Assembly: GCF_018595675.2 (NCBI RefSeq) | Contig: NZ_CP092333.1 | Location: 3,620,001-3,684,000, forward strand | Origin: Flavihumibacter fluvii | GTDB taxonomy: Bacteria > Bacteroidota > Bacteroidia > Chitinophagales > Chitinophagaceae | Reading direction: 5' to 3' | Length of the DNA: 64,000 bases | Shown: piece by piece, positions 48,845 through 51,058 of the stretch | Layout of the letters: each line of letters starts with the position of its first letter | Numbering within the stretch: position 1 is the stretch's first letter | The notes under the pieces: generated by a model | Told to the model about the DNA's origin: nothing | Databases searched by the model: none | The model's input: only the letters and a program-made list of their open reading frames with translations | Program-made: the position numbers and the translations under genes

Positions 48845-49312
48845 TTATGGTTGAACCATAACATTTCTGTTAAGGCTTTCATCCAAAGAAATAAATGTTT
48901 CCGTTCGTTCGATTCCCTTGATTTTTTGTAACTGGTCATGCAATACGTTTCGCAACTGATTGATATCTTTACAAACGATCTCGGCAAAAATGCTGTAATT
49001 ACCGGTGGTATAGTTCATGCGAACAATTTCAGGGATTTTTCCCAGCTCACGCGCAACGGTATCGTACAAAGAGCTCTTTTCAAGGTATATACCGATAAAT
49101 GCGATCACGTCATAACCCAGTAATTTCAGGTCTACATTCAACCGTGTTCCACGAACAATGCCCATTTCTTGTAACTTCTTGATCCTGACATGGATGGTGC
49201 CGCCAGAAACAAAGAGCTTTTTGCCCAGGTCGGCATAGGAAGTTTCTGCATTTTCCATCATTTCATGAATGATCTGGTAATCAAGTTTGTCTAAATTTAA
49301 TTTGATAGCCAT
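48845..49312 (-). CDS. Lrp/AsnC family transcriptional regulator
   Basis: 155 residues. The N-terminal helix-turn-helix (LDYQIIHEMMENAETSYADL, KLFVSGGTIHVRIKKLQEMG) is followed by the RAM ligand-binding domain (GYDVIAFIGIYLEKSSLYDT, TGNYSIFAEIVCKDINQLR). Such proteins sense an amino acid and act as global or local regulators. The dyad AAACAAT-N4-ATTGTTT at 49360-49377 directly upstream of its start is probably its own operator. It lies between the gene and the divergent promoter for the tRNA-like RNAs, so the regulator may also affect those RNAs. Confidence 0.93.
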   Translation of the reverse strand: MAIKLNLDKLDYQIIHEMMENAETSYADLGKKLFVSGGTIHVRIKKLQEMGIVRGTRLNVDLKLLGYDVIAFIGIYLEKSSLYDTVARELGKIPEIVRMNYTTGNYSIFAEIVCKDINQLRNVLHDQLQKIKGIERTETFISLDESLNRNVMVQP

Positions 49313-49359
49313 TTTACAGTTCGATTTTAGAAATTTTCTACATAAATATATAAAAAACT

Positions 49360-49377
49360 AAACAATTTCGATTGTTT
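49360..49377. promoter_or_regulatory. inverted repeat AAACAAT-TTCG-ATTGTTT, probable Lrp site
   Basis: Perfect 7-bp arms with a 4-bp spacer lie 48-65 bp upstream of the Lrp-type start codon and 20 bp upstream of the -33 box of the plus-strand RNA promoter. The location suits both autoregulation and control of the divergent transcript. Confidence 0.5.
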
Positions 49378-49396
49378 TCAAATTTTAATTGAAACA

Positions 49397-49429
49397 TTTG
49401 CAATGAATGCTCCATTCGTTGTATGTTTG
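49397..49429 (+). promoter_or_regulatory. Bacteroidota-type promoter for the tRNA-like RNAs
   Basis: TTTG (49397-49400) and TATGTTTG (49422-49429) are separated by 21 bp, fitting the TTTG-N19-21-TAnnTTTG consensus. A start near 49435 lies about 20 nt before the first tRNA-like RNA, and no protein gene follows on this strand up to 51159. Confidence 0.7.
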
Positions 49430-49456
49430 CATTGTCGTAGTTCTTAAGACATATAC

Positions 49457-49575
49457 TGTGGGATGATGAAATTTTCGGCAGACATGCCCTCTCGTCTCGG
49501 GGGTGGGGATTATCGGATAAAACAGGCGAAAGTCTGGCTAACGACCCCGTGGAGGTTCGACTCCTCCTCCTACAG
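49457..49575 (+). ncRNA. tRNA-like RNA 1, type II shape with a 47-nt variable arm
   Basis: The acceptor TGTGGGA pairs with TCCTACA (49457-49463 with 49568-49574), extended by C49456-G49575. The D arm is ATG/CAT with GG in the loop (49466-49484), and the anticodon-like stem is CCCTC/GGGGG with loop TCGTCTC. The T stem is GGAGG/CCTCC with a canonical TTCGACT loop. The variable arm (49504-49550) has outer GGGG/CCCC and inner CAGGC-GAAA-GTCTG, a GNRA-capped hairpin. Position 33 of the loop is C rather than the invariant U; a literal anticodon would be GUC. CA follows G73, not CCA. It may be a non-decoding tRNA-like RNA. Confidence 0.7.
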
Positions 49576-49605
49576 CAACCGTATTTTTGAGTTTGTTCTT
49601 TATAC

Positions 49606-49794
49606 TGTGGGGTGATGAAATCTTTGGCAGACATGCCCTCTCGTCTCGGGGGTGGGGAATCCAGGATAAACGTAGCATAGAGCCGACTGGTATTCCAGTT
49701 CCGTAAGGAATCGGAATGAAGCCGACCAGGGTTGACCACTAATCTTTGTACTACAGCTAACTGCCCCGTGGAGGTTCGACTCCTCCCCCTACAG
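49606..49794 (+). ncRNA. tRNA-like RNA 2, type II shape with a 117-nt variable arm
   Basis: This is a paralogue of RNA 1: the anticodon-like arm and the whole T arm are identical, and the D arm differs by two bases. The acceptor is TGTGGGG with CCCTACA, so the last pair has changed from A-T to G-C in both strands, a compensatory change. The variable region (49653-49769) is far longer. It contains three stacked helices CTGGT/ACCAG (49687-49691, 49725-49729), ATTCC/GGAAT and TTCC/GGAA, capped by the GNRA loop GTAA. A strong terminator follows at 49802-49832. The loop again lacks U33. Confidence 0.7.
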
Positions 49795-49801
49795 CATTTT
49801 T

Positions 49802-49832
49802 AAAATCCCGCCCCCATTGGTGGGATTTTTTT
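49802..49832 (+). terminator. intrinsic terminator after the tRNA-like RNAs
   Basis: AAAATCCC pairs with GGGATTTT across an internal C-rich loop, followed by a T run. It lies 8 nt after RNA 2 and bounds a transcript of about 400 nt from the promoter at 49397-49429. Confidence 0.8.
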
Positions 49833-49951
49833 GTACCGCAAGCAACGATTGCGACCTGTGTAGATCGCAAAAAATTAGGTACACACGATTTTCTCATGTG
49901 TGTGTTTACAGCTGTTAGGTAGCCCCTCTTCGAAGAGGGGCTTTTTTTTGC
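49833..49951 (+). other. structured gap ending in a second plus-strand terminator
   Basis: Between two terminators lie a hairpin TTGCGA/TCGCAA (49849-49854, 49865-49870) and a hairpin ACACAC/GTGTGT (49881-49886, 49898-49903). The terminator AGCCCCTCT-TCGA-AGAGGGGCT with eight T (49921-49949) ends the stretch. No start or promoter is evident, and no protein gene lies here. It may be a read-through RNA or a small RNA. Confidence 0.4.
49921..49949 (+). terminator. strong intrinsic terminator, plus strand
   Basis: The near-continuous stem AGCCCCTCT / AGAGGGGCT with a TCGA loop is followed by eight T. On the minus strand no T run follows, so it serves a plus-strand transcript rather than the glycosidase gene ending at 49952. 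Confidence 0.8.
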
Positions 49952-51058
49952 TCAGTTTTTTTGACGGAGGTCCCGCCAGGTTTGTAATACTGGCCTGGGT
50001 TGATTGTTTTCATCATAAAGGCCGGTATCCCGCCAAAAAAGAAAGAGGGGTTGGTAATCGCCCGAAGCCTCCAGGGTTGGAATCAGGGCATCATAATCGG
50101 TATAACAAAACCATACGGCAAACTGTCCGTTTCTCGCCCGCATCAACTCCCCTAATTTTTGCAGGTACCGGTTTTGCCAAAGCTGCGTACCCTCTTTGTG
50201 CAGGCTGTATTCCGGCACATCCAGGTTTTCGGCGATATAACCTGTCTCGGCAAAACACCAGGGTTTAGCCGGGGCAAGGTCTAGCCATCGTTCAAAGTAC
50301 CCTTCCGGAAAACGGTCAGGATCCGTATTGCCATTGGCACTGCTGCTGACATGTGTATACGGGTACGCACTCAGCGCCACCCAATCGGAATAAGGCAATA
50401 ATTGCCGGGCGTAATGCATGCTCCTCTCCTCTTCATTCACCACCAGGCTTAAAAAAACGGGTATACCGGGATGGGATATTTTAAGGGCAGCATACACACC
50501 CGCGCAAAAGGCCTTATAACGTGCAAACTCAGCCGGATCCCATGTATCGAGGTTACTTTCCACGCCAAAATTGATCCATTGGGGAGAAAATTGGCCCGCC
50601 AGGTATTCCACATAATTCACATAAGCAGTGATCACATCCGGATGGTCAAAAGGCAGTGATTCCCAATATTGTTTTTTATCAGGAGGCGTTTCATTGGCCA
50701 GGCGGTAGTAGCTGGTTTTCGACTTCCGTGTCAGGCTCAGGGCTGATACACTCAGGAAGACAGGTTTTGTGCCGGTATATAGTTTCCGGAATCCAATATC
50801 CTCTGAAAGGGCTTTGGGCATTGGCTCCTTATTAAAGGCTTCTTCATAGGGAATCCCTTCGTCAATCTGTTGCATTACGAAATCACATTCCCGGTTAATA
50901 AAATCATATGCACTTGCCACCGATGCCAGCGAATATTCTGCCGGCCAGGGCGTAACACCCAATTTAACCGGCGTGGGAATGGTGTCTTTCTTTTTCTGGC
51001 ATTGTGTCAAAAAAAATAACCCAAATAAACAGCCTATTATTCTTTTAGGTACATACAT
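49952..51058 (-). CDS. glycosidase-like lipoprotein (clan GH-A TIM barrel)
   Basis: 368 residues with a lipoprotein signal ending at FLTQC. The fold appears to be a TIM barrel of the clan GH-A kind. INFGVESNLDTWDPAEFARY around residue 163 puts a glutamate where the acid/base should be, and WCFAETGYIAENLDVP near 263 places the nucleophile. YSDWVALSAYPYTHVSSS lies between them. The family is not identified with certainty (similar to arabinogalactan endo-galactanase and cellulase-like proteins). Divergent from it, 100 bp away, is the GH95-like gene, so they may act on related plant glycans at the cell surface. Confidence 0.65.
   Translation of the reverse strand: MYVPKRIIGCLFGLFFLTQCQKKKDTIPTPVKLGVTPWPAEYSLASVASAYDFINRECDFVMQQIDEGIPYEEAFNKEPMPKALSEDIGFRKLYTGTKPVFLSVSALSLTRKSKTSYYRLANETPPDKKQYWESLPFDHPDVITAYVNYVEYLAGQFSPQWINFGVESNLDTWDPAEFARYKAFCAGVYAALKISHPGIPVFLSLVVNEEERSMHYARQLLPYSDWVALSAYPYTHVSSSANGNTDPDRFPEGYFERWLDLAPAKPWCFAETGYIAENLDVPEYSLHKEGTQLWQNRYLQKLGELMRARNGQFAVWFCYTDYDALIPTLEASGDYQPLFLFWRDTGLYDENNQPRPVLQTWRDLRQKN

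Follow-up and report, generated by a model that had tools for sequence, protein, structure and literature searches.

Giant-armed tRNA-like RNAs of Bacteroidota, candidate aminoacyl carriers for GatCAB

In tRNA-dependent asparagine synthesis, AspRS and GatCAB act on tRNA-Asn, a route described for Deinococcus and Thermus and proposed for Bdellovibrio (PMC4206432, in part). For bacterial AspRS, G73, G34, U35, C36 and C38 are strong determinants, and the G1-C72 pair, which is strictly conserved in bacterial tRNA-Asp, is said to matter as well (PMC9976931, in part). GatCAB requires U1-A72 in Asp-tRNA(Asn) and Glu-tRNA(Gln), and G1-C72 and U20a act as its antideterminants in Asp-tRNA(Asp) (PMC9976931 and PMC4206432, both in part). 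E. coli AsnC, which responds to asparagine, regulates the divergent asparagine synthetase gene asnA (PMC8707732, in part).

Here we describe a locus of Flavihumibacter fluvii that recalls elements of these systems in an RNA pair of a different kind. We propose, with a probability of about 0.6, that the pair belongs to a family of tRNA-derived, non-decoding RNAs serving as aminoacyl carriers for GatCAB, with aspartate converted to asparagine on the RNA and asparagine supplied in this way.

The RNA pair, its relatives and their structure

The window, that is, the whole stretch of DNA analysed, comprises 64,000 nt of contig NZ_CP092333.1. It holds a tandem pair of tRNA-like RNAs, both read 5' to 3' on the + strand, at the site claimed by the first-pass annotation. 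Their lengths (119 and 189 nt, from nt 1 to the discriminator), the 30-nt spacer between G73 of RNA 1 and nt 1 of RNA 2, and the variable arms of 47 and 117 nt all match that description. The features of the locus are the following.

48845..49312, - strand: Lrp/AsnC-family regulator gene, divergent from the RNA unit (Pfam AsnC_trans_reg 60.8 bits, HTH_AsnC-type 48.8 bits)
49422..49430, + strand: promoter-like box TATGTTTGC (pattern TAnnWTTG), of the Bacteroidota -7 type
49457..49575, + strand: RNA 1, nt 1 to discriminator G73, 119 nt; encoded C74 at 49576
49487..49503, + strand: RNA 1 anticodon-type stem-loop CCCTC-TCGTCTC-GGGGG, with triplet GUC, C33, U37 and C38
49504..49550, + strand: RNA 1 variable region, 47 nt, GAAA cap; arm in the short form with a GGATAAA/CTAA internal loop
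49551..49567, + strand: RNA 1 T arm GGAGG-TTCGACT-CCTCC
49606..49794, + strand: RNA 2, nt 1 to discriminator G73, 189 nt; encoded C74 at 49795
49636..49652, + strand: RNA 2 anticodon-type stem-loop, same sequence as in RNA 1
49653..49769, + strand: RNA 2 variable region, 117 nt, with basal helices, GRYAAA/CUAA internal loop, long helix and two apical hairpins
49770..49786, + strand: RNA 2 T arm
49802..49832, + strand: intrinsic terminator closing the two-RNA unit, recognized from the sequence

The cloverleaf of both RNAs consists of a 7-bp acceptor, U8 and G9, a 3-bp D stem with a Leu-like loop, a 5-bp anticodon-type stem and a standard T arm. The T arm, the 5-bp anticodon-type stem and the TCGTCTC loop with its C33 are shared by the two copies, as had been reported, and the acceptors differ by a compensated change, A7-U66 in one copy and G7-C66 in the other. 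One apical hairpin of the RNA 2 variable region has its loop around GGTTGACCA. The tetraloops GAAA and GTAA do cap the window arms as described, but such GNRA caps are not universal across the family. By eye, part of the giant arm seems similar to 23S rRNA.

ARAGORN makes no tRNA call anywhere in the window, nor at the family RNAs within the scanned loci. The view that the RNAs lie outside Rfam agrees with the absence of gathering-level matches in the window and in 14 family loci; the Rfam tRNA model finds nothing at 49300-50000 even up to E 10, and neither RNA is among the 35 RF00005 matches of the host genome. A DNA search found no other copies in the F. fluvii genome.

Relatives are numerous. 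Of 147 genomes from the window's own taxonomic family searched at the DNA level, 123 have a match at E ≤1, which in some cases is weak. We took 38 sequences from 30 loci, the window locus included, and aligned 28 long forms to build covariance model R1, leaving out the long forms L010 and L015 as near-duplicates; RNA 2, itself part of the model, scores 188.6 bits. At E ≤0.01, the class-level search of 396 genomes gave R1 matches in 118, and the order-level search of 248 gave them in 169. Strong matches (<1e-12) occur in 155 of the 248 order genomes, and the other 14 of the 169 are weaker and were not counted as RNA-bearing. Carriers among the loci listed (80 of 120, from a pattern scan and confirmed by R1) include Chitinophaga, Niabella, Terrimonas, Dyadobacter, Spirosoma, Cyclobacterium, Algoriphagus, Echinicola, Fulvivirga and Neolewinella. 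The weak class-level matches that were fetched proved to be ordinary tRNAs, namely eight tRNA-Leu (seven GAG, one CAG) and otherwise Tyr, Ser or Gln. These were excluded from the family counts, together with two partial arm-only matches (L063/L045) and one 22.6-bit match (L080:817). That the ordinary tRNAs caught by R1 are mostly tRNA-Leu(GAG) bears out the earlier suggestion of a tRNA-derived RNA with a Leu-like D arm.

We regard it as near certain that these RNAs form a genuine, conserved family that has apparently not been described before. A literature search at the level of titles and abstract openings, mostly within openly available publications, returned no description of such an RNA. 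The family is large and was overlooked by the annotation tools used (ARAGORN, Rfam).

Copy number varies within the family (G636 and G673 are among the examples), with up to five R1 matches per order genome. Locus L071 (G335; 1193-1564, - strand) carries three almost identical copies in tandem with 20-nt spacing. In L063 (G424), two additional partial copies, of the half that comprises the arm and the T arm, lie downstream of the full RNA (1203-1270 and 1521-1588, - strand), each with about 100 nt of other sequence within the T loop before the acceptor end, an arrangement that resembles repeated attachment-site insertion at a tRNA gene. The copy in L096 (G258; 1055-1203) has lost the anticodon-type loop and keeps the arm, T arm and acceptor; it is either degenerate or a sequencing fault.

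The first-pass annotation held that the pairing is selected, and the relatives support this. In the MAFFT alignment of the 28 long forms, the fraction of paired cells is 95.3%, and 18 of 47 pairs have changed on both sides; in 76 distinct relatives, fitted to the model for alignment, the values are 96.5% and 38 of 47. The covariation of the 76 sequences exceeds all 500 shuffles and all slides. It is strong in the acceptor, D, anticodon and T stems, and also in the giant arm, where covarying pairs across species had been named in advance as support for a functional RNA. The arm measures 38-129 nt (median 80, 161 parsed sequences), its most constant element is the internal loop with GRYAAA opposite CUAA, and in long forms a covarying helix and two hairpins are also present. 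Helix 8 is the weakest part of the model, paired in only 67 to 72% of cells.

The single-sequence folding energy of the window RNAs is not significant (z -1.43 and -0.80), and we accept the cloverleaf because the comparison of relatives shows covarying pairs beyond those of the shuffles. Both the minimum-energy fold and RNAalifold favour a different pairing in the D/anticodon part. The alternative hairpins of RNAalifold are ruled out, since compensated changes are seen in the wider sequence set, both in the anticodon stem (CCCGC/GCGGG, CCAGC/GCTGG) and in the D stem.

Transcription unit and identity elements

The TAnnWTTG pattern is found in 146 of 198 distinct upstream regions of family loci, against a mean of 21.8 in Markov-resampled sequence, and terminator-like sites are found in 115 of 196 distinct downstream regions, against a mean of 3.1 after Markov resampling. 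The 3' end had been read as GCA without a clear CCA. This is what the sequence holds, but it is not unusual, as discriminator plus C is the normal host form: a C directly follows the discriminator in all 24 host tRNA genes listed (of the 35 RF00005 matches), as in the window RNAs, and at least two of the 24 (L119, L124) encode the full CCA. The GC end (discriminator and C74) is kept in 164 of 165 relatives. Judged by these signals, the RNAs look as if they are produced and finished in the manner of tRNAs.

A divergent AsnC/Lrp homologue lies 122-360 nt upstream of the RNA in 141 of 213 family loci, some of which share one genome; in L081, the gene is located on the opposite side of the RNA pair. 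It is missing from 60 loci with at least 700 nt of upstream sequence, and 11 loci are too short to judge. Many of the named loci lacking it belong to what we take to be Saprospiraceae or Cyclobacteriaceae. Within about 1.5 kb of the RNA, AsnC/Lrp genes recur at 48 loci, and the next protein-coding cluster, a transporter permease, at 13. An AsnA gene adjoining an Lrp gene was searched for in two RNA-less genomes and was not found.

Identity elements were tallied in 165 unique sequences not picked by the loop-fixing pattern, 161 of which could be parsed and 4 could not. The named loci of the pattern scan were kept out of the anticodon tally because that pattern fixed GTCTC. In this set, which contains several sequences from one genome or genus and for which search query and model include the loop, the triplet at 34-36 is GUC in 155 of 161, UUC in 3, CUC in 2 and other in 1 (loop lost). 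C38 is present in 158 of 161, U37 in 148 of 161 and G73 in 164 of 165. The GUC triplet read earlier is not incidental, being kept in relatives alongside C38 and G73. U1-A72 and G2-C71 are both present in 165 of 165, and the G1-C72 pair of bacterial tRNA-Asp is absent from the family. There is also no U20a, the D loop reading GGCAG in nearly all sequences listed (the loop numbering is our own).

The host AspRS is of the bacterial type. Ordinary tRNAs of the host include tRNA-Asp(GUC), tRNA-Asn, tRNA-Gln and five tRNA-Leu, and among the 24 tRNA genes listed only those for Asn and Gln begin with U1. No tRNA-Ile(GAU) or tRNA-Ala(UGC) was seen among the ordinary host tRNAs scanned; they perhaps lie in missed rRNA operons. 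Since Asp determinants are combined with U1-A72, the sequence suggests an AspRS substrate that has become a substrate of GatCAB. The signals point to a non-decoding aminoacyl carrier, for which aspartylation and amidation to Asn-RNA would follow from the determinants. AspRS may, however, clash with the giant arm.

Decoding tRNAs generally have U33 and a purine at 37. The window copies have C33 and U37, in line with the earlier judgement that they are unlikely to decode. Across the family, position 33 is U in 115, C in 32 and G in 14 of 161 parsed sequences, so that this nucleotide alone does not exclude decoding; U37 together with the varied nt 33 speaks against it. It is accordingly very improbable that the RNA is an odd decoding tRNA for Asp codons. 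The GUC triplet and the U33 majority would suit such a tRNA, but the host already has an ordinary tRNA-Asp(GUC), U37 is kept in 148 of 161 sequences, C33 or G33 occurs in 46 of 161, and the arms reach 38-129 nt. A role as a stand-in for a missing host tRNA is ruled out by the ordinary tRNA-Leu(GAG) and tRNA-Asp(GUC) of the genome.

The UUC copies are found in L076 (G431) and L290 (G497), where the loop is CTTTCTC, and in L095, which has a worn body. UUC and CUC are glutamate triplets, and glutamate represents the other substrate class of GatCAB; if the Asn-RNA reading holds, these variants would be Glu/Gln forms. The CUC lineage, G318 and G465 (RNAs L289 and L077), contains AsnRS-like frames of 346 and 195 aa (L339, L340), which cover only model positions 133-447 and 269-448. 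An alternative source of Asn may have freed the RNA of this lineage from aspartate.

Co-occurrence with GatB and with asparagine synthetases

We scored the presence of GatCAB by GatB, and the link to GatB was predicted from the identity elements before genomes were searched. Among 64 hand-chosen genomes, GatB is found in 32 of 32 with the RNA and in 13 of 32 without it. Thirteen of the RNA-less genomes belong to the window's own family, and none of these has GatB. AsnRS is present in all 64 and GlnRS in 47. Twelve of the 13 RNA-less genomes with GatB have no GlnRS and would therefore need GatCAB for Gln-tRNA, and the remaining one (G447) has a weak GatB match. The window genome's own GatB is named by NCBIfam.

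The 248 genomes of the order formed a systematic draw, in which GatB is present in 152 of the 155 RNA-bearing genomes. With a GlnRS cut-off of E ≤1e-100, 198 of the 248 bear GlnRS, and of these 131 have both the RNA and GatB, 2 the RNA only, 8 GatB only and 57 neither (Fisher test, 3e-38). This value ignores kinship, and the within-genus cases are therefore better evidence. The 50 genomes without GlnRS include 47 with GatB and 22 with the RNA; of the latter, a single one (G609) lacks GatB. Both genomes with the RNA only (G078 and G663) are assemblies in hundreds of contigs. As to the eight with GatB only, the RNA of G126 is cut by a contig end, R1 matches are weak in G037, G540, G583 and G683, and none is found in G596, G658 and G699.

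For comparison within genera, we considered the 36 genera with at least two GlnRS-bearing genomes (133 genomes). Six of them (g34, g101, g10, g302, g104 and g349) contain both members with RNA and GatB and members with neither; the discordant genomes there are G596 (g302) and, only through the contig end, G126 (g34). Three more genera have one discordant genome each, G658 (g105), G683 (g341) and G663 (g346). These comparisons strongly support the view that the RNA works with GatCAB, a partner enzyme that the data point to and that is new relative to the first-pass annotation.

The association statistic does ignore phylogeny, and the host tRNA-Asn likewise begins with U1. GatCAB and the RNA might then be functionally unlinked, both being ancestral and lost in the same lineages, or GatCAB being kept for Asn-tRNA(Asn) made through a non-discriminating AspRS, a route proposed for genera with AsnRS, GlnRS and GatCAB, including Bacteroidetes (PMC4206432, in part). 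We consider this improbable in view of the joint presence and joint absence inside six separate genera, the restriction of the RNA without GatB to two fragmented assemblies among GlnRS-bearing genomes, and the U1-A72 pair, whose presence in every relative would have no evident reason.

A large structured arm with conserved loops, dedicated transcription signals and an adjoining regulator gene would also fit a regulatory RNA, either one that binds AspRS or GatCAB as a decoy or sensor or one that reports aspartate/asparagine status through the arm, with no substrate turnover. This reading is unlikely: a decoy leaves unexplained both the conserved tRNA 3' end and the retention of GatB mostly with the RNA in GlnRS-bearing genomes.

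Turning to asparagine synthetases, AsnA is found in 2 of the 32 hand-chosen RNA-bearing genomes (G318, G441) versus 4 of the 32 without the RNA (G110, G718, G705, G533). An AsnB of about 556 aa, recognized by a two-piece match pattern, occurs only in G028, G662, G166 and G403, genomes that have neither the RNA nor GatB, and in 0 of 32 RNA-bearing genomes. In a comparison of nine proteins, these four share 75-92% identity among themselves and 27-32% with five other AsnB homologues; by their length, we take them to be the housekeeping, E. coli-like type. Either AsnA or this AsnB is thus present in 2 of 32 RNA-bearing versus 8 of 32 RNA-less genomes. In the mixed genera g10 and g34, all four RNA-less genomes tested (G110, G718, G705, G662) have one of the two enzymes, and the RNA-bearing G034 has neither, with longer AsnB homologues present.

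AsnB homologues above the cut-off are found in 27 of 32 RNA-bearing genomes; the five with neither AsnA nor AsnB above the cut-off are G022, G087, G362, G399 and G431. Of the two AsnB homologues in the window genome, the first belongs to a polysaccharide cluster, and the second is encoded next to a Cys/Met enzyme and may be a real Asn synthetase. G431, whose RNA is of the UUC type and which has GlnRS and GatB, is a poor fit with asparagine supply, as it combines a Glu/Gln-type RNA with the absence of a synthetase. Moreover, G031, G125 and G684 have AsnRS but no RNA, GatB or AsnA and no AsnB above the cut-off; they may obtain Asn from another source or be auxotrophs. The absence of a synthetase therefore does not prove the RNA route.

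With AsnB homologues so frequent and AsnA in 2 of 32 RNA-bearing genomes, free asparagine is perhaps not the point. Asn-RNA could instead act as the aminoacyl donor in a non-ribosomal reaction such as envelope, lipid or peptide modification, for which the special tRNA-Gly of staphylococcal cell walls is a precedent. The same determinants and the same GatB coupling apply to such a donor. We nevertheless hold it to be unlikely: AsnA or the AsnB of about 556 aa is found more often in genomes without the RNA, and no transferase gene is prominent beside the RNA, where AsnC/Lrp genes (48 loci) and the permease (13) are the recurrent neighbours.

Proposed mechanism and known systems compared

In the preferred reading, a carrier on which GatCAB turns aspartate into asparagine, the RNA would be made from its own transcription unit, probably under the divergent AsnC/Lrp regulator, and would undergo tRNA-type end processing and CCA completion. 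AspRS would load aspartate through G34, U35, C36, C38 and G73, and GatCAB would amidate the Asp-RNA to Asn-RNA; we propose that it accepts Asp-RNA because U1-A72 is present and G1-C72 and U20a are absent. The giant arm, U37 and the variable nt 33 would hold Asn-RNA off the ribosome, where GUC would place Asn at Asp codons. Deacylation of Asn-RNA would then yield asparagine for AsnRS.

Sequence comparison shows the family, its structure, its determinants, the GatB coupling and the synteny, and the case for coupling to GatCAB is strong. From these we infer the chemistry of the steps, above all ribosome exclusion and deacylation, and likewise the Asn product and its use, free asparagine appearing to be the most economical end product. 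We see about even odds that the family represents a new RNA class, a dedicated non-coding carrier for amino-acid synthesis. Such an RNA would combine the AspRS set with U1-A72, keep its product off the ribosome by the giant arm and let bacteria with a discriminating AspRS make Asn, and some lineages would have been re-tuned to Glu/Gln by UUC/CUC.

If true, the proposal would describe a tRNA that left decoding for a role as metabolic carrier, with nearly every unusual base accounted for. It would also give a reason why many Bacteroidota retain GatCAB despite having AsnRS and GlnRS, a question raised in PMC4206432 (in part).

Among described RNAs, class II tRNAs, and tRNA-Leu(GAG) in particular, come closest in body, sharing the 7-bp acceptor, U8, the 3-bp D stem, a near-identical D arm and 5-bp anticodon and T stems. 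In contrast to tRNA-Leu(GAG), the family has a 38-129-nt arm that forms helices and an internal loop of its own, and it also differs in U1-A72, G73 and the GUCUC loop; unlike class II tRNAs, it escapes both ARAGORN and the tRNA model of Rfam. Allo-tRNAs, the nearest comparison offered by the first-pass annotation, are also non-canonical bacterial tRNAs with lengthened variable arms. They are not an apt comparison: their acceptor/T branches measure 8/4 or 9/3 and their identity elements are those for Ser (PMC7609411, in part), whereas the family has a 7-bp acceptor with a 5-bp T stem and Asp-type determinants. The pseudo-tRNA tRNA-Other of Bacillus cereus is similarly a tRNA-like gene apparently outside translation; it is embedded in a larger regulatory RNA of Bacilli (PMC3399842, in part), whereas the present RNAs form short stand-alone units in many families, with another anticodon, arm and partners.

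With E. coli asnC/asnA, the RNA unit shares the layout of an AsnC-type regulator divergent from its neighbour (PMC8707732, in part). The likeness to tRNA-dependent asparagine synthesis lies in a U1-A72 RNA as the presumed aspartate carrier and in the presence of GatCAB alongside AsnRS and GlnRS. There, the carrier is ordinary tRNA-Asn and AspRS is non-discriminating (PMC4206432, in part), whereas here the carrier would be a dedicated, non-decoding RNA with an Asp-type loop, for which a discriminating AspRS would therefore suffice.
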